Source: an uncultured Nodularia sp.
Lineage (GTDB): Bacteria > Cyanobacteriota > Cyanobacteriia > Cyanobacteriales > Nostocaceae
DNA length: 64,000 nt
Assembly: GCA_903911355.1 (NCBI GenBank)
Contig: CAIWDD010000040.1
Coordinates: 1 to 64,000 of the forward strand
Direction: 5' to 3'
The notes beneath the pieces were generated by a model. The model was not told the DNA's origin. It saw nothing but the letters and a program-made list of their open reading frames with translations, and did no database searches. The position numbers were made by a program, and so were the translations under genes. Positions 13,743-21,923 of this stretch are shown in pieces (position 1 is the first letter of the stretch; each line of letters starts with the position of its first letter).

Positions 13743-16148
13743 TTAAAAATTACCTCTGAGAAACAGAGTAAATACATTCTCGTTGATTTTCAATTCCTGT
13801 CCATTGTTATCTGTGCCAAAGTCGTACTCATTATTACTCCAGGATAGGTTAAATATAGGACTATTCTGATTGCTACCCATTCTCCATCTAGCTCCCGCAC
13901 CATAAACAGCACGAGCGGCATTTTCATTCACGGGATGATAATAGGCTGATAATGACAAATTCTGGCTAAATTCAATACCAGCACTTGTCAGCAAAGTATT
14001 TTTAATTGCATCCGGTAAAACATCCCCAAAATAGTTAGTTAAACCGAACCAAACATTACCTAAATTAGCCCTAGCTCTCAGGTTAATAGAATTTACAAAG
14101 TCATCGGCTCGAGTTTCCCTGTCAAAAGCATAATTAACCCCCGTGGAGATGACTAAATTACTACTCCGATTCCAGGGGATAACTTTATCAATACTACCTG
14201 TAACTTGACTGTAATTATCAACATCTGGATTAAGATAACCAATTATGGCTCCAGAAAAACGCCATCTGTCCGCAGTATTTTTCGTATAATCCACACCAGT
14301 GTAAGCTTGAATTTCTTCTGCGCCGATCACACCTGTATAATATCGCAATACATCCTGACTCCCGGTGATATTACCAGTAAAACTCAAATGTGGTACATAT
14401 ACTGTTTCTTGTTTATATTTGCTAGATGTGACACTATTCGCCTCTTGGTTAAAAACAGTCACATAAACTTGAGCATAAAAATTCGGCACATTTCGCGGTG
14501 AAAAACTTTGATTATTAATAGTAGATCTAAAATCTATATTAGACTCAGATCCCCCTTCTAAACCCTGAGAGGATAATATTTTCAGGTTACCAATATCTTC
14601 AAACCGAGTACTAACACCAGAACTAAGTTGGATAGTGGGTGATGCTCCTACCCAAATACTATTAAAACTAGCAGCAGGTACTTGTGACCAACTTGTCAAT
14701 CCTGGGGGACTACTCTCGGCTCTAGCAATTCCGCCGTGATAAGCAGTTAAACTATTAGCAGGAATTCTTACGTTATTAGCAGCTAAAAACAAATTTCTGT
14801 TAACAGTCCTCCTCCCAGAAGGTTTGTGATGATTATCCCCAGGTGAAGCTAAATTGTTTTTCCCACTTGAGTTAAATCTGGTTTCTGAACTAGCTATGTT
14901 GGGTACAATATCAGGTAATACAGTATATCCCAATTGCAAAGCTGTATTCAACAAAGTATTATCATCATTTAAAATGAAGCTAAAGCCGCGTACAGTTCGA
15001 CCCATGACAGCTTCCCGGTCATTCATCCTCACAATTTGCCTAACTATAGAATAACTAGCAACCGGAGTATTTTCAACTTCTTCTTTTCTAATGACTGATA
15101 TCTGGTCGCCATTACTATTACCAACGGATCCACCGGTGTTGGGTATTAACAAATCTATACCAATTTGTTGACCATTTTCTAACCCGGGTTGAAATTCCGG
15201 TTTGCTGATTTCCTCTGCTGTTCTTGTTGCTACTACATCCCCCAGTGTTGCAGTTTGGGAAATCCTAAATGGTAGTAGATTATCAGAGTTAATATTCCCA
15301 GATTGTAAAGCCGGAATATATGTACATATTTGATCGGGGTTAGTCCCAGGAAAGATACATGAACCTGTCATACTCAATTGCAGGTTTGTACCCAACACAG
15401 TTTGTGGTTGTTTGAAGCTAACCGTAACTTCTCTAGTTTGTCTGGTGGTTTGCAGTTGTAAATATTCTCCTACTTGGTCTACAGTCAAGATATTATTTGT
15501 TGTTAAGTTTTCCTTAACTGTTCCGTTCAGCTTGACAATTCCGTTAATATTAAAAATATTATTGGGGCTATTATTAAAGTTGTAACCTAAATTTAATCGT
15601 CTCTCGGTTAAGTGGTCAATCAATAGACCATTGATAGGTAAGGTCGTTGTGCGGCGATGGATTTTTCGCTCATCAGCAATTCTCGGAGCAATGATATATT
15701 CTTGATTATCCCCTGGATGTGATTTTTCTATTGCTAATTTTTGTTTAATTTCTAATTCATCAACTCTAGGTTGTGAAACTAATTCTAGGGTATGAGATTC
15801 TGTGGTCTTAGTAGGTATACAAGAATGAATTATAGAATTACTTGTTAGTAAGTCCCTGACGGCGGTAAATTCTGCTTGTCCAGGATGAATGAACGGACAA
15901 AAGGGAAGCTGAGAACTACTTTCTGCTAAATTTGTCACCTTTAGCTGGTGGATAATACCAGATGCTGATATGTCCTCCAGATTATTAAATATTTTCTTTT
16001 CCACCTCGGAAGTGGTAAAAACTTCTAATTGGCTATTGCTTGTATTTTTAGACATCTCAGCAACTGCTGTTTGAGCCAGGAATATCACTGCTGAACTCAA
16101 GAGAAGACCAATTGTCCAGTTTAATTTTTGGTAGTGCAGAATCAACAT
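13743..16148 (-). CDS. Putative outer-membrane beta-barrel protein, unknown
   Basis: An 801-residue exported protein that I cannot name. The N-terminus is a typical Sec signal peptide with a hydrophobic core (IGLLLSSAVIFLAQ) and an AVAEM cleavage region near residue 31. The middle is Asn/Ser/Thr-rich and extended. From about residue 560 the pattern alternates hydrophobic and polar residues with aromatic girdles (e.g. LVISTGVNYAFD, VWFGLTNYFGD, LSLSAYYHPVNE), and it ends in FTLFLRGNF. A terminal Phe is the usual outer-membrane assembly signal. It lies downstream of a small secreted protein and PhoX on the same strand. A role in uptake or cell-surface structure is conceivable but unproven. Confidence 0.55.
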   Translation of the reverse strand: MLILHYQKLNWTIGLLLSSAVIFLAQTAVAEMSKNTSNSQLEVFTTSEVEKKIFNNLEDISASGIIHQLKVTNLAESSSQLPFCPFIHPGQAEFTAVRDLLTSNSIIHSCIPTKTTESHTLELVSQPRVDELEIKQKLAIEKSHPGDNQEYIIAPRIADERKIHRRTTTLPINGLLIDHLTERRLNLGYNFNNSPNNIFNINGIVKLNGTVKENLTTNNILTVDQVGEYLQLQTTRQTREVTVSFKQPQTVLGTNLQLSMTGSCIFPGTNPDQICTYIPALQSGNINSDNLLPFRISQTATLGDVVATRTAEEISKPEFQPGLENGQQIGIDLLIPNTGGSVGNSNGDQISVIRKEEVENTPVASYSIVRQIVRMNDREAVMGRTVRGFSFILNDDNTLLNTALQLGYTVLPDIVPNIASSETRFNSSGKNNLASPGDNHHKPSGRRTVNRNLFLAANNVRIPANSLTAYHGGIARAESSPPGLTSWSQVPAASFNSIWVGASPTIQLSSGVSTRFEDIGNLKILSSQGLEGGSESNIDFRSTINNQSFSPRNVPNFYAQVYVTVFNQEANSVTSSKYKQETVYVPHLSFTGNITGSQDVLRYYTGVIGAEEIQAYTGVDYTKNTADRWRFSGAIIGYLNPDVDNYSQVTGSIDKVIPWNRSSNLVISTGVNYAFDRETRADDFVNSINLRARANLGNVWFGLTNYFGDVLPDAIKNTLLTSAGIEFSQNLSLSAYYHPVNENAARAVYGAGARWRMGSNQNSPIFNLSWSNNEYDFGTDNNGQELKINENVFTLFLRGNF

Positions 16149-16358
16149 AGACGCTTATTACCAGTCCTGAAATAATTATCAAGTCTGGTTAAAAGATTAT
16201 CATAGGGATTTATGGTTTGTATTTTTTTTCTAACTTAAAAAAAGTTAGGGCTAAAAGAATTGGATAACGGGATCAATTTAACTGCCCCTATTGATAATTT
16301 TAAATTCTTGACACCCTAACAATTTTTTGGAAACAAAAGCGCTACCATTCCAGATTAC

Positions 16359-16784
16359 TTAAAATCCAGTTTCTATGGTTCCAATGGGGAGGTCTGTGAA
16401 GGTAGCAATGCTGTTAGCTTGGACGGTTTCTAACTTAGAATCTTCACCACCTATGATAGTAACATTGTTGTAAACTTCGCTCTCAGACTGACCACCTTCT
16501 TCACTGAAGGAATAATTCCCACTGTCGCTGATGATTTGAATCACGCCAGCACTACCTAAAGCAGTTGCGGAAATCACACCAGAGTTGGATGTGGCTAAAG
16601 CGGCCGCATCGTTTTTACCAATAGCGCCAGCAGCAGTCATTTCAATTACTAAACCATTTTCATCAAGTGTAGCTGCTACAGCCCCAGCAGCAGCGCCTTC
16701 ACCAGCAGAGGCTACAGAACCAAAGCCAAATACACTAGCGGAAACTGCAACTAAGGCGATCGCTACTTGTTTGTGGAATTTCAT
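16359..16784 (-). CDS. Small secreted Ala/Gly-rich protein, unknown
   Basis: 141 residues from the ATG at 16784; the TTG one codon earlier is rejected because AGGAG sits ~9 bases upstream of the ATG. A clear signal peptide (VAIALVAVSASVFGFGSVASAG) is cut near residue 28. The mature part is acidic and low in complexity (EGAAAGAVAATLDENG, alternating Ala/Ser/Gly strands), without Cys and almost without Lys/Arg. This suits a periplasmic or extracellular structural protein. A two-copy Pho-box-like repeat and a possible -10 element lie upstream. I do not recognise a family. Confidence 0.6.
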   Translation of the reverse strand: MKFHKQVAIALVAVSASVFGFGSVASAGEGAAAGAVAATLDENGLVIEMTAAGAIGKNDAAALATSNSGVISATALGSAGVIQIISDSGNYSFSEEGGQSESEVYNNVTIIGGEDSKLETVQANSIATFTDLPIGTIETGF

Positions 16785-16951
16785 CAACTTGTACTCCTCT
16801 TATTTCAACTTTGATCTAGTTGCGATGTATACACATTAACCTCTGTAGGTTGCTAATTCTTTCACTATTAGTTACTTTTAGCACCACAGAGAAAGCTTAC
16901 AACATGTGTATAACTACCATCACTACTATTTAGTATCTCATTAAAAAAGAG

Positions 16952-16990
16952 GTTATACTTTAGCTTCCTTAAAGTTAACTTTAAGTTAAG
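16952..16990 (-). promoter_or_regulatory. Candidate Pho-box half array plus -10 for the small secreted protein
   Basis: Read on the minus strand, CTTAACTT-AAA-GTTAACTT (16990 to 16972) gives two 8-bp direct repeats with a 3-base spacer. They are close to the cyanobacterial Pho-box unit PyTTAAPyPy(T/A). A TATAAC element follows after 14 bases (16957-16952). The second repeat starts with G instead of a pyrimidine and no third copy is present, so the call is tentative. Confidence 0.4.
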
Positions 16991-17067
16991 TTTTTCCTTG
17001 TTATATCTGTAATTTGACAATTCTCCTGGAGGTGATACCCTAGGTCAGATATCCAACCCATAACCCA

Positions 17068-17103
17068 TTAAAAAATATCCCCGACCATTATTAAGTCGAG
17101 GAT
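17068..17103 (-). terminator. Rho-independent terminator of phoX
   Basis: On the minus strand, an ATCCTCGAC / GTCGGGGAT stem with a 9-base loop (17077-17103) is followed directly by ATTTTTTAA. It lies ~40 bases past the PhoX stop codon and separates it from the small secreted protein gene. Confidence 0.8.
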
Positions 17104-17140
17104 AGGAAAATAATCTTGACGCTTGTCACCTGTCTAGGAT

Positions 17141-19330
17141 TTAAGTACCAATAATACCGCCGTCATTCTTGGTAATTACCACGGTAGCGGAACGGGGGCG
17201 ACCCGATGGGCCATGACCTTGACTATGTGGCCAGTTGCTAACCTTGTTGGGTTCTGCAATGGTACCACTATCACCTGGGTGCTGAATATTGATAAACATG
17301 GTTCTATGATCCGGTGTAGTAGTTACACCAGTGACTTCACACTCGGTGGGACTGGTAAGGAAAAGCTTGATCTGTCTAGGATCATTAGGGTTAGCACATA
17401 ACATGGTGTTACTACCAATGTTAACTAAATTACCAGTACCATCACCGGCGTGGTCAGTTTGAATCCACAGACGACCATAATAGTCAAACCACAGACCATC
17501 CGGTGAACTAAAGTCATCACCGTTAATATTACCCACCAGATTAGCTTCAGTTCTTTGGCTATCACCAGCTAAGACATAAATATCCCAGGTAAAGGTGGTA
17601 GCTGCAACGCTGCGTCCAGTCTCCCGCCAACGGATAATGTGACCGTAACGATTATCTGGTCGGGGGTTAGCCGCATCCACAGGAGGACGAGCAGAACCTC
17701 CGGGAGTTGTGCCATCTGGATTATTCACCGATGGGGTTCCTGTACCGCGACGAGAGTTGTTAGTCAATGTGCAGTAAACTTCTACTTCATTGAATTCACC
17801 AATACGAGGACGCACAGCAATCCACTCTGGGCGGTCCATCATAGTAGCGCCAACTCTATCTGCAGCCTGTCTGGTTTTAATCAGCACTTCTGCTTGGTTA
17901 TTAAATCCATTTTCCGGTGTAAGTCCCCGTTGACCCCACACTAAAGGTAGCCATTCACCAGTACCATTGTCATTGAACTTGGCAACGTAGAGAGTACCCT
18001 GGTCAAGGAGATCACGGTTATTGGCACGTACTTGAGGATCGTAGGTACGAGAACAAACGAACTTATAGATATATTCGTTGACATTATCGTCACCTGTATA
18101 GAAAGCTAGACGATTGTTGTCATCAACAACATATTGAGCGCTCTCGTGTCTGATGCGACCCATGGAGGTACGCTTAACTGGCTTGCTGTTGGGTTCGTAG
18201 GGGTCAATTTCCACTATCCAGCCGAATAAATGGGGTTCTAGGGGATTATTAAAAGCGTCAAAGCGGGGATCAACCTCAGCCCAGCGATAGTAGCTAGAGG
18301 CTGCGGGGATACCATAACGTCTTTGTCCATTGATGATATCAGCCTTTTTAGCCTCCAGACCTGGAATATTAACTATATCCGCAGTTTGCCCAGATCCAAA
18401 TGTGCTGTTAGCGAAATAACCTTGGAAGTTCTCTTCACAGGTGAGGTAAGTACCCCAGGGTGTAATGCCATGGGCGCAGTTGTTGAGAGTACCATAGGCA
18501 GTGAAACCGTCATTCACCCCAATTTCAACTGATCCATTAGGTTGAATGGAGAATTTCTTAGACCTCATCAACGCATCGCCAGCCGCAGGCCCAGAAACCC
18601 GCATTTCCGTATTGACAGTAATGCGGCGACCATAGCGGGAATTGCGATCAACACTCCAACCACCCCCAAATCTATCCTTAGATACCTCTAGGATGGATAC
18701 ACCATGAGCAGCCTGAGATTTTCTGGCTTTCTCAATGGTCATTACAGTATTACCGTCAGTATGCAAGAAGTGTTCTTGAGTATACTCATGGTTAACACAC
18801 AGTATTCCCCTACGATTGAAAGCCTGACCTTGTACAGGGACATCTAACCCCGATGTCTTGTTGTAATAGCTTTTTCCTGGTAGAGGGAAAAAGTGCATCC
18901 CGTCATGGTTTTCCCCCATTTGTTTTTCTTGGGCTGCTGCACCTTGAGAAGCATCGGGTAGCCAATCAGGGGCACCAGGCATGATGGGGTCTCCCCAAGC
19001 CGCTAAAATCCGCGCTGTGTAACCAGGGGGAACACTAACTAAATCTTTCTCTAACAGTCCAGTTTCTGCGTTGCGCAGATTTGGTTCAATACTTTGGAAT
19101 CCTATACCAGCAAAGCCAAGCCCAGCAGGTACTGTGGATGTGGAAGCAGTTGCTGTTTGCAGCAAGCCGCTGACGGTAGTATCACCCAAAACTGCCAATA
19201 TAGATGTACTAGCTGCTGTCACCACAAAGCGCCGGCGCTTCATGCTTACCCGTCCAATTACGTCGAGAATTGACTCATTACCGGATGGGTTGATGGTTAT
19301 GTTGTTCTTCGGATGAAGATGACTTTTCAT
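17141..19330 (-). CDS. phoX: PhoX-family (DUF839) phosphatase, Tat-exported
   Basis: A 729-residue protein of the PhoX alkaline phosphatase family (calcium/iron enzymes that release phosphate from organic esters outside the cytoplasm). The N-terminus has the long extension typical of the family, then a twin-arginine signal (MKRRRFVVTAAST) and a hydrophobic stretch. The mature part shows NHDGMHFFPLPG, LCVNHEYTQEHF, NNCAHGITPWGTYLTCEENF, GRIRHESAQYVVD, SPDGLWFDYYGRLWIQTD and VTGVTTTPDHRTMFINIQHPG, all usual DUF839 blocks. Length is normal. An array matching the Pho-box consensus lies ~205-230 bases upstream, suggesting control by phosphate starvation (SphS-SphR). It has its own terminator. Confidence 0.88.
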   Translation of the reverse strand: MKSHLHPKNNITINPSGNESILDVIGRVSMKRRRFVVTAASTSILAVLGDTTVSGLLQTATASTSTVPAGLGFAGIGFQSIEPNLRNAETGLLEKDLVSVPPGYTARILAAWGDPIMPGAPDWLPDASQGAAAQEKQMGENHDGMHFFPLPGKSYYNKTSGLDVPVQGQAFNRRGILCVNHEYTQEHFLHTDGNTVMTIEKARKSQAAHGVSILEVSKDRFGGGWSVDRNSRYGRRITVNTEMRVSGPAAGDALMRSKKFSIQPNGSVEIGVNDGFTAYGTLNNCAHGITPWGTYLTCEENFQGYFANSTFGSGQTADIVNIPGLEAKKADIINGQRRYGIPAASSYYRWAEVDPRFDAFNNPLEPHLFGWIVEIDPYEPNSKPVKRTSMGRIRHESAQYVVDDNNRLAFYTGDDNVNEYIYKFVCSRTYDPQVRANNRDLLDQGTLYVAKFNDNGTGEWLPLVWGQRGLTPENGFNNQAEVLIKTRQAADRVGATMMDRPEWIAVRPRIGEFNEVEVYCTLTNNSRRGTGTPSVNNPDGTTPGGSARPPVDAANPRPDNRYGHIIRWRETGRSVAATTFTWDIYVLAGDSQRTEANLVGNINGDDFSSPDGLWFDYYGRLWIQTDHAGDGTGNLVNIGSNTMLCANPNDPRQIKLFLTSPTECEVTGVTTTPDHRTMFINIQHPGDSGTIAEPNKVSNWPHSQGHGPSGRPRSATVVITKNDGGIIGT

Positions 19331-20024
19331 TTATAGTGACTCCGTTTAATCTTTATAACCAAAGCAATTTAGTTCGCACACTCAAACAAGACTTGAAGGG
19401 GATAATTGCAATATCCATTGAGTGGTTTTTACTCTTGTGATAACCAATTACCCATAGGTGAGGAAATTGGAAAATCAGATATTTTTCTGACTGAACATAA
19501 ACACCAATATTTTGTCCTCAATTTATGTAATAAAGATTAAAATATGGTTATAACCTGATTAATTTAAGTTTATTCAGTAGCTTTATTTGAGAATAATTAT
19601 GTTTTTTTAATAAAATAAAACACTGCTATGACAGCAGCTAAATTTCAGCTATAGGCTTATAAATTAGCTATTTAACTTTGGTTGACATTTATCTAAATTG
19701 ATGATTTTTCCTACCTTATTAAAAATAGTTCTCATTTTATTTTGAATAATAAACATTTCATTTATTCAGATATATCTTGATTAAGAATAATTTTTGTGCA
19801 TAGAAAAATACTCTAAATAAATTAGTAAAATTATTCTATAAACTGCTAAAACTATACTTGATTTATTATTTAATTTATGATCTGGAGTAACTAGGCAAAA
19901 CTGTGTGAATCCAACTCAACACCCCTATAAACACCAGTAATCAAAAATGACTGCTCTATTTTTGATTAAAGTCAGGGGCTAGCTCGCCGCAGTTATCTTG
20001 GTCTGTTGTTGTCTTATCCTGGAG
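19331..20024. other. Long AT-rich divergent intergenic region
   Basis: Nearly 700 AT-rich bases between phoX and the glycosyltransferase gene. Apart from the candidate Pho box at 19534-19563 I see no ORF, RNA or repeat. The untranslated leader of phoX would be ~200 bases if the box is functional. Confidence 0.5.
19534..19563 (-). promoter_or_regulatory. Candidate Pho box upstream of phoX
   Basis: Read on the minus strand, three 8-bp units are separated by exactly 3 bases: ATTAATCA-GGT-TATAACCA-TAT-TTTAATCT. The published cyanobacterial Pho-box unit is PyTTAAPyPy(T/A), usually in three or more copies 3 bases apart. The third unit matches fully and the first two each differ at one base. A TACATAAAT stretch just downstream may be the -10 region. 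Confidence 0.55.
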
Positions 20025-21005
20025 ATGGGTAATTCTGTTGTGGGTGAGACTGTGTTTTTCAGTGTTGTTATACCGACTTATAATCGCCGACCAATTCTAG
20101 AAAAGTGCCTCCGCGCTTTGGAGGTGCAAGAGTTGAGTGGATCAAGTGCATACGAAGTTGTTTTAGTAGATGATGGCTCTACTGATGGCACATTGGACTG
20201 GTTGAAAGCACATAAGGAAGAATTTCCCCATGTGCGATGGTTTGAGCAAGACCACGCCGGCCCCGCGGCGGCTCGGAATTTGGGGATTTCCCAAGCACGG
20301 GGAGATATCATAGTTTTTATTGACAGTGATTTGGTGGTGGTGAAGAATTTTCTGCAAGCCCATGGGGAGGCGCTGGTGCAGGGGCGCAAAAAACTAGGAA
20401 GCGATCGGGAAAGGCTACAGGAAGCAGATGGCTTTTTTACATATGGTGCAGTAATTAATACTTGCAATTTCCATGAACCCACGGCTGAACCCTATAAAAT
20501 CACAGATTTTTCTGCGGCTTTTTTTGCTACAGGTAACGTAGCCATCCCCAAGCATTGGCTAGAGAAGGCGGGAATGTTCGATAATAGCTTCCAACTGTAT
20601 GGTTGGGAAGATTTAGAATTAGGTGTGAGACTGAAAAAATTGGGGCTAAAACTAATTAAATGTCCAGCAGCAGTGGGCTATCATTGGCATCCACCATTTA
20701 ACTTAGAACAAATTCCCCGTTTGATTGACCAAGAAATTCAACGCGGACGCATGGGAGTTTTATTTTATCAAAAGCATCCCTGTTGGGAAGTACGCATGAT
20801 GATTCAAATGACCTGGTTACATCGTTTACTGTGGGGTATTCTCTCCCTGAATGGCTTACTGAATGAGCGGACTATGGCGCCTTTGTTACGGTGGCTAATT
20901 AACTTAGGTAAACCCCAGTTAGCCTTGGAAGTTGCCCGAATTTTCCTTAATTGGTACAACGTCAAGGGAGTTTATGCTGCTTACGCCCAAGTCAGAAACC
21001 AGTAA
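20025..21005 (+). CDS. Family 2 glycosyltransferase
   Basis: A 326-residue GT-A-fold glycosyltransferase. It opens with SVVIPTYNRRPILEKCLRAL, followed by VLVDDGSTDGT, the acceptor region GPAAARNLGISQARGDII and the metal-binding FIDSDLVVV (DxD type). GWEDLELGVRLKKLG near residue 200 is the catalytic-base (ED) region. The C-terminal third is amphipathic and may touch the membrane. I use the ATG at 20025; an in-frame TTG at 19998 would add nine residues. Sugar donor and acceptor are unknown. Confidence 0.9.
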   Translation: MGNSVVGETVFFSVVIPTYNRRPILEKCLRALEVQELSGSSAYEVVLVDDGSTDGTLDWLKAHKEEFPHVRWFEQDHAGPAAARNLGISQARGDIIVFIDSDLVVVKNFLQAHGEALVQGRKKLGSDRERLQEADGFFTYGAVINTCNFHEPTAEPYKITDFSAAFFATGNVAIPKHWLEKAGMFDNSFQLYGWEDLELGVRLKKLGLKLIKCPAAVGYHWHPPFNLEQIPRLIDQEIQRGRMGVLFYQKHPCWEVRMMIQMTWLHRLLWGILSLNGLLNERTMAPLLRWLINLGKPQLALEVARIFLNWYNVKGVYAAYAQVRNQ

Positions 21006-21072
21006 AATTGAGTTGAAATAGTACATTTATTGTGATATGCTCGGAGGGTTGTCTAAACTCGCACATCCAGTA

Positions 21073-21126
21073 ATTCGGGTGTTTCCTCACCAGGGAAATA
21101 CAACTGGGTGGAGGTTTAACCCGAAT
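21073..21126 (+). promoter_or_regulatory. Structured leader of rpsB (possible S2 autoregulation site)
   Basis: A perfect 8-bp long-range pairing (ATTCGGGT at 21073-21080, ACCCGAAT at 21119-21126) encloses a second hairpin (TTTCC...GGAAA). The 3' arm ends right before the AGGAG ribosome site of rpsB, so pairing could affect initiation. Ribosomal protein S2 regulates its own mRNA leader in other bacteria; that it does here is inference. Confidence 0.45.
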
Positions 21127-21140
21127 AGGAGTAAAAAAAT

Positions 21141-21923
21141 ATGCCAGTAGTTTCATTGGCTCAAATGATGGAGTCAGGGGTACATTTTGGGCATCAAACC
21201 CGGCGTTGGAACCCAAAAATGTCTCCCTACATTTATACTTCCCGCAATGGCGTACACATCATTGACTTGGTGCAAACTGCCCAGTTGATGGAAGATGCCT
21301 ATAGCTATATGCGATCGCAGTCTGAACAAGGTAAGAAATTCCTGTTCGTTGGGACAAAACGCCAAGCAGCCGGAATCGTTGCCCAAGAAGCGGCACGTTG
21401 TGGCTCTTTCTACATTAATCAGCGTTGGTTGGGTGGAATGCTGACCAATTGGGCAACCATCAAAACCAGAGCAGACCGTCTCAAAGATTTGGAACGCCGG
21501 GAAGAAAACGGCGCTCTAGATTTACTACCCAAAAAAGAAGCTTCTATGTTACGTCGCGAGATGGTGAAGCTTCAGAAATACCTGGGTGGGATTAAGAACA
21601 TGCGGAAAGTACCCGATGTGGTGGTGATTGTAGACCAACGGCGGGAATATAATGCAGTTCAAGAATGCCAAAAACTGGGACTGCCTATTGTGTCTATGTT
21701 AGATACAAACTGCGACCCAGACGTAGTAGATATTCCCATACCAGCTAACGATGATGCCATCAGATCAATTAAATTGATAGTGGGCAAATTGGCGGATGCA
21801 ATTTATGAAGGTCGTCACGGTCAGCTAGAAACTGACGAATACGAAGATTATGATGCTTCTGAGTATGACGAGGAGTACGAGGAGTACGAAGATCCTGACT
21901 CCACCTCTGACGACGAGGAATAA
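21141..21923 (+). CDS. rpsB: 30S ribosomal protein S2
   Basis: A 260-residue protein of the small subunit, needed for S1 docking. [20 protein letters not shown] at the start, [31 protein letters not shown] and the [15 protein letters not shown] block are diagnostic. The C-terminal ~35 residues are a strongly acidic Asp/Glu/Tyr tail, as in other cyanobacterial S2. It is followed by tsf, the near-universal partner, after 256 bases that contain a repeat. Confidence 0.97.

Follow-up and report, generated by a model that had tools for sequence, protein, structure and literature searches.

A conserved three-unit candidate Pho box at the phoX promoter of an uncultured Nodularia and its relatives

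The window, by which we mean the whole stretch of 64,000 nucleotides that was analysed, carries on its minus strand a gene for the alkaline phosphatase PhoX. A family-2 glycosyltransferase gene diverges from it on the plus strand, as do two further genes that are probably rpsB and tsf. The phoX start codon is an ATG at 19330, and the element described here lies 233 to 204 nt upstream of it, in the intergenic DNA between the divergent genes.

17141..19330, minus strand: phoX, encoding the 729-aa alkaline phosphatase PhoX (Pfam PhoX, 591.6 bits; PDB PhoX, E = 3.8e-133)
19534..19563, minus strand: three-unit candidate Pho box upstream of phoX (22/24 consensus positions, matrix rank 1, core conserved in orthologues)
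19563-19556, minus strand: unit 1 of the box, ATTAATCA
19552-19545, minus strand: unit 2 of the box, TATAACCA
19541-19534, minus strand: unit 3 of the box, TTTAATCT
20025..21005, plus strand: glycosyltransferase gene, divergent from phoX (Pfam Glycos_transf_2, 102.6 bits; an earlier TTG start at 19998 is possible)

The earlier note had named the gene downstream of the box as phoX, which is borne out both by the Pfam PhoX score, to be read against a cut-off of 24, and by a phmmer comparison of the window's protein with the solved PhoX structures 3zwu/4amf, which gave the E value listed above. The protein is 87-88% identical to PhoX of Anabaenopsis elenkinii CCIBt3563. Outside the Nostocales, most of the close relatives among the matches listed come from beta- and gammaproteobacteria, at 42-57% identity, and these proteobacterial relatives may reflect transfer between phyla.

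Read on the minus strand from 19563 down to 19534, the box is ATTAATCA-GGT-TATAACCA-TAT-TTTAATCT, in which the linkers GGT and TAT are both 3 bases long and set an 11-bp period. Against three copies of PyTTAAPyPy(T/A), or YTTAAYYW, it agrees at 22 of 24 positions, the mismatches being an A for a pyrimidine at position 1 of unit 1 and an A for T at position 2 of unit 2. That this segment holds three such units with exact 3-base spacers had been claimed before and is confirmed here, on the minus strand. A Pho box has at least three tandem direct 8-mers near CTTAACCT or YTTAAYYW, and such 8-mers are found at the site, with a matrix score of 17.9.

By consensus alone, the phoX box stands moderately above chance. 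The 30-mer pattern, searched with up to 3 mismatches, matches only once in the 64 kb, at the phoX box, against 0.15 matches expected, and at least one match appeared in 12 of 100 shuffles of the 64 kb. Within the 400 nt upstream of phoX, 22/24 was reached in 2 of 3,000 dinucleotide shuffles on the sense strand, and in 2 of 1,500 when either strand was allowed. Genome-wide, the best agreement is 2 mismatches, reached at six sites, and 38 sites have at most 3 against 12 for the reversed pattern. None of the six 2-mismatch sites falls within an ORF of at least 70 aa, and one of them, besides the phoX site, precedes phnC. Since the genome holds six such sites, the phoX box is not unique by consensus alone, and it is conservation that makes the case. 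Plain consensus counting was weak in single orthologues, where the best scores average 19.4/24 against 17.6 in shuffles and are mostly not significant row by row; it was therefore replaced by a matrix of published sites and by conservation.

The SphR matrix was made for this analysis from the 8-mer units, linkers ignored, of 27 distinct sites pooled from Table 1 of Su et al. 2007 (PMC1906773), and it differs from the profile of those authors. A scan of this kind, which the earlier note had proposed, puts the phoX box first among the 127,942 positions on both strands of the window, its score falling inside the 5.3 to 24.0 spanned by the training sites. Only 1 of 2,000 shuffled phoX upstreams equalled this score, and among the 42 upstream regions of the window phoX again comes first, the next reaching 10.9. 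In 44 control upstreams of the window's genome there was no sense match of at least 12.5, and three when either strand was counted; in 100 kb of it, scores of at least 14 occur at 4 positions, both strands counted, the highest being 16.0. The second-ranking position in the window, a plus-strand match at 2125 scoring 16.5, was taken as chance; it lies inside a long, presumably PEP-synthase-like gene on the opposite strand.

Conservation was followed in 217 genomes of the family, 69 of which have a PhoX match at E <= 1e-150 (71 matches). The resulting set holds 69 phoX upstreams, the window's included, which represent 23 genera of one family and are not independent of one another; two partial genes (G201, G135) and ten low-identity phoX-like upstreams (L019-L027, L030) were left out of it, and 80 named loci that served for names only stand outside all counts over the 69. 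The core TTAA-N7-WTAA-N7-TTAA is found upstream of 59 of the 69 orthologues, in 17 of the 23 genera, and a stricter form of it upstream of 55, compared with 5/69 and 0/69 in a reversed-upstream control. The 3-base linkers, and with them the 11-bp period that belongs to a Pho box, are kept in the same 59 of 69. Ten upstreams lack the core, and for two of these only 244-250 nt of sequence are present. The best matrix score has a mean of 14.9 across the 67 upstreams that reach 400 nt or more, compared with 6.2 after shuffling. An alignment-free profile over the 22 other genera places the best-conserved 30-nt stretch at the box, with a peak of 20.2 starting 2 nt before it and 19.4 at the exact box, whereas positions more than 30 nt away have a mean of 16.5 and a maximum of 18.5, and the reversed control a maximum of 18.4. 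This conservation is the strongest evidence for the candidate box.

In the footprint of 59 rows, conservation at the TTAA, WTAA and TTAA columns is true by construction. The usual form in Nostoc is ATTAATCAATATATAACCTGATGTTAATAC, and the boxes of the relatives deviate from the SphR consensus in a fixed way, with ATAA in unit 2 and YC mostly missing in unit 3, for which reason many of them score only 14-15. Some linker bases are conserved as well across the 59 footprints. Together, the fixed deviations and the conserved linker bases are a point against a plain SphR site, which would not require them. The element could also be read as an inverted repeat (ATTAATCA...TGATgTTAAT in Nostoc), a reading rejected here since the second arm is lost in the window and in A. 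elenkinii, both of which retain the direct units. Four relatives (L007, L011, L183, L185) have a second Pho-like box, with matrix scores of 15.1-19.6, at about 163-190 nt before phoX, downstream of the conserved box but ahead of the start codon; the matrix scan found no such second box in the window.

The following features lie around the box.

19331..19513, minus strand: predicted 5' untranslated leader of phoX, placed from the position of TAAATT
19520..19525, minus strand: -10-like hexamer TAAATT, 8 nt after unit 3 (TANNNT there in 54/59 footprints)
19567..19574, minus strand: possible fourth unit AATAAACT, weaker and in phase with the 11-bp period (37/59 footprints have NWTAAAYT here)
19622..19638, minus strand: terminator-like hairpin upstream of the box, in the phoX direction (1 found; shuffles mean 0.2, sd 0.5)

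TANNNT begins exactly 8 nt downstream of unit 3 in 54 of the 59 footprints, against 0 to 3 at the other offsets from +30 to +49, a count slightly favoured by the choice, in the 4 rows with several core matches, of the one followed by TA at +38. From this hexamer, transcription of phoX would start near 19513. A Pho box is expected at the promoter of a phosphate-acquisition gene, and here phoX lies downstream and the -10-like hexamer adjoins the box. A sigma-70 scan of 19330-20030 gave two -35/-10 pairs, both elsewhere and none at the box, as expected for an activator-dependent promoter. The hairpin may insulate the phoX promoter, and an Rfam search of 16000-21200 returned nothing. In Synechocystis, the boxes of SphR-activated promoters overlap or precede the -35 region, while SphR represses urtA from boxes close to -10 (PMC13226834); by this comparison, the layout of the candidate phoX box is that of an activated promoter.

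A Pho box also presupposes that the genome encodes SphR and SphS, and candidates for both are found on contig C5, where an OmpR-type response regulator, a histidine kinase and PhoU stand in a row that fits SphR-SphS-PhoU. Of 34 matches to the PhoB model, some of them partial, that of the response regulator is the best; at 243.1 bits it is below the curated cut-off of 296.2, so that the name SphR rests on gene order. In the gene list of N. spumigena, phoB (SphR), phoR (SphS) and phoU likewise appear under nearby consecutive tags (PMC3610870). Elsewhere in the window's genome, the matrix finds sense-strand boxes at phnC (20.1), pstS (16.6) and one of two phoD genes (15.9), and lower scores at a second PhoX-like gene (13.5), a second pstS-like gene (12.9) and the other phoD (11.6). 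At a third locus of the PBP family, no matrix score exceeds 5.8.

Some further matches deserve mention in their own right. The top matrix score in the window's genome (G000), 21.4, belongs to a site on contig C114 (L207:979-1008) with no recognised phosphate gene downstream, the nearest downstream ORF of at least 70 aa on that strand being 470 nt away. On C5, a match of 14.9 (L145:6505-6534) follows closely on the SphR-SphS-PhoU-like cluster and precedes a 213-aa ORF. A second, shorter PhoX-family gene is divergent from an RpaB-like response regulator in the window's genome (L146:3221-5803, C79) and in N. spumigena (L281:2157-4848, G150); the regulator scores 227.9 bits, below the model cut-off of 330. 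The boxes of this second gene are weak (13.5 in G000, 12.1 in G150), although nsp18960 is strongly induced in PMC9846622.

Expression data from the literature can be brought to bear through N. spumigena (G150), whose phoX is 78% identical to that of the window, syntenic with it and preceded by the three-unit element. There, phoX is divergent from a glycosyltransferase gene and a ribosomal S2 gene, and is followed downstream by a cation-efflux gene and an alkaline phosphatase. The order of phoX, cation-efflux gene and alkaline phosphatase fits nsp12940, nsp12930 and nsp12920, tags assigned on the basis of gene family, gene order and succession along the chromosome rather than of sequence identity with named records. 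The log2 changes reported at days 7 and 14 of phosphate limitation were 7.0 and 5.4 for nsp12940, 7.1 and 5.0 for nsp12930, and 6.6 and 7.8 for nsp12920, which makes the phoX orthologue up about 130-fold after 7 days without phosphate (PMC9846622). The authors of that study state that a search for a conserved P-box was unsuccessful, and propose other factors for the N. spumigena stimulon.

With the SphR matrix, a sense-strand box of at least 12.5, a threshold chosen after the scores were first seen, precedes 5 of the 8 induced N. spumigena operons tested: phoX (14.9), the cation efflux-phosphatase operon (20.7), pstS nsp28900 (18.3), phnD nsp7480 (16.3) and phnC1 (21.0). The other three have no sense match at this level (pstS nsp52600, 11.0; phoX2, 12.1; ptxA, 6.5), nor have the two weakly or not induced operons (sphX, 5.0; phnD2, 8.1), nor any of 43 control upstreams (Fisher p = 2.4e-5). 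Of these sites, the pst one is similar to sites on which the matrix was trained, and the phoX, phn and cation-efflux operons lie outside the training set. The test omits operons 448, 480, 481, 514-516, 706, 1934, 2214, 2215, 2312 and 3474 of Table 1 in PMC9846622. The 20.7 match (L278:7192-7221, minus strand) lies between phoX and the downstream cation-efflux/alkaline-phosphatase operon, which is among the most induced operons in PMC9846622 and for which that source reports no P-box.

Taken together, the sequence, its conservation and spacing, the regulator-like genes and the sister boxes make it highly probable that the phoX box is the operator of an SphR-activated phoX promoter. The matrix, the footprint, the -10-like hexamer and the SphR-SphS-PhoU-like cluster support the earlier reading of the element as an SphR Pho box of phoX. 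When phosphate is scarce, the kinase SphS would phosphorylate the response regulator SphR, and SphR~P would bind the three, perhaps four, TTAAYC-type units, arranged head to tail at 11-bp spacing on one face of the DNA. Bound in this way, it would occupy the place of the -35 element, 8 nt upstream of the TAAATT hexamer, and recruit RNA polymerase, so that phoX would be switched on and the PhoX phosphatase could free phosphate from organic esters. For the organism of the window, we infer that SphR binds the box, that it activates phoX and that phoX is induced by low phosphate.

Other readings of the element have to be weighed against this one. The TTAA repeats could be a functionless accident of AT-rich intergenic DNA, since the phoX upstream has a GC content of 0.26, shuffled upstreams already average 17.7/24, and the pattern has 38 genomic sites with at most 3 mismatches, against 12 for its reverse. 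The footprint makes such an accident very unlikely: 59 of 69 orthologues retain the core, but not the remaining upstream (20.2 at the box, against a mean of 16.5 and a maximum of 18.5 outside it), and a single shuffle in 2,000 equals the matrix score. That the conserved element is the operator of a regulator other than SphR, of OmpR/PhoB type (for example of the RpaA/RpaB type) or an unknown factor, is also unlikely, if less so. The footprint is more constant than the loose SphR consensus requires, with its ATAA in unit 2 and its conserved linker bases, the 34 PhoB-model matches, partial ones included, point to several further PhoB-like regulators in the genome, and other factors are what the authors of PMC9846622 propose for the N. 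spumigena stimulon. However, three direct units at an 11-bp period are the layout of SphR, boxes at pst, phn and phoD come up with the same matrix, and neither the RpaB HLR1 nor the NtcA pattern is present at the box. The HLR1 motif is a pair of TTACA-type units separated by 2 bases; when 3 mismatches at most are allowed, none of its matches falls at the box (46 in the window against 39.8 expected), and the same is true of the NtcA pattern GTA-N8-TAC (18 in the window against 12.1 expected).

It is extremely unlikely that SphR binds the box but represses phoX, as it does urtA, or that the box mainly serves the divergent glycosyltransferase gene. Repression has its precedent in Synechocystis urtA, where the boxes are near -10, but the phoX box ends 8 nt before its -10-like hexamer and covers the -35 zone, which is the layout of activated promoters (PMC13226834), and the N. 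spumigena orthologue is induced, not repressed (PMC9846622). The position between two divergent genes would allow the glycosyltransferase gene as target, but the box faces phoX and is about 435-460 nt from the glycosyltransferase start.

The phoX promoter would accordingly rank, as an SphR-activated promoter, among the well-supported but ordinary ones, for this kind of site has long been known and a pho box has already been reported before phoX of Trichodesmium. We lean towards a wider reading, in which the phoX promoter of the Nostocaceae is a fixed module some 45-55 bp long (three to four SphR units, joined by partly fixed linkers and followed after 8 nt by TAAATT) that marks a family-wide SphR regulon, comprising in N. 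spumigena phoX, the cation-efflux/alkaline-phosphatase operon, a pst operon and two phn operons. If this is true, the published inference that the N. spumigena stimulon lacks P-boxes and is controlled by other factors would not hold for the majority of the operons most strongly induced in it. A phosphatase gene would be tied to the known phosphate sensor across many Nostocaceae, including the bloom-formers Nodularia and Anabaenopsis. It would also supply operators where a published RNA-seq study found none, so that the regulator of the stimulon becomes testable by changes of a few bases.

The closest known counterparts are the SphR Pho boxes of sphX, pstS2 and phoA in Synechocystis sp. PCC 6803 (Suzuki et al. 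2004, quoted in PMC1906773 and PMC13226834), which as quoted there share with the phoX box the three 8-mers YTTAAYYW, the 3-base linkers and the place of the -35 element of an induced promoter. The phoX box differs in having ATAA rather than TTAA in unit 2 and in the gene it precedes, and binding has been tested for the PCC 6803 boxes while the phoX box is known here from its sequence. Predicted Pho boxes at phoA, pst, sphX and nucH of PCC 7120 and ATCC 29413 (Su et al. 2007, PMC1906773) come from the same order of cyanobacteria and have the same layout, that of PCC 7120 phoA beginning ATTAATCT-tta-GTTAACCT; unlike here, the word phoX is absent from the main text of that paper, and the parts of it consulted do not describe a conserved -10 either. 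In Trichodesmium, of another cyanobacterial order, a pho box before phoX (Tery_3845) is cited from Su 2007 and Orchard 2009 (PMC6411698), and by this description it is likewise a pho box at a phosphate-regulated phoX. A collection of cyanobacterial Pho boxes in RegPrecise is mentioned in PMC7546424; a literature search that included PMC9490380, PMC6713934, PMC12260270 and PMC7546424, and that stopped short of most subscription journals and of the RegPrecise cyanobacterial Pho boxes, found no earlier report of the element before phoX of the Nostocales. Nearest of all is the P-stimulon of N. spumigena CCY9414, in which nsp12940 is syntenic with the window's phoX, carries the element and is induced by phosphate limitation (PMC9846622); unlike that study, which as described there found no conserved P-box, the present analysis finds boxes before five of the eight induced operons tested.
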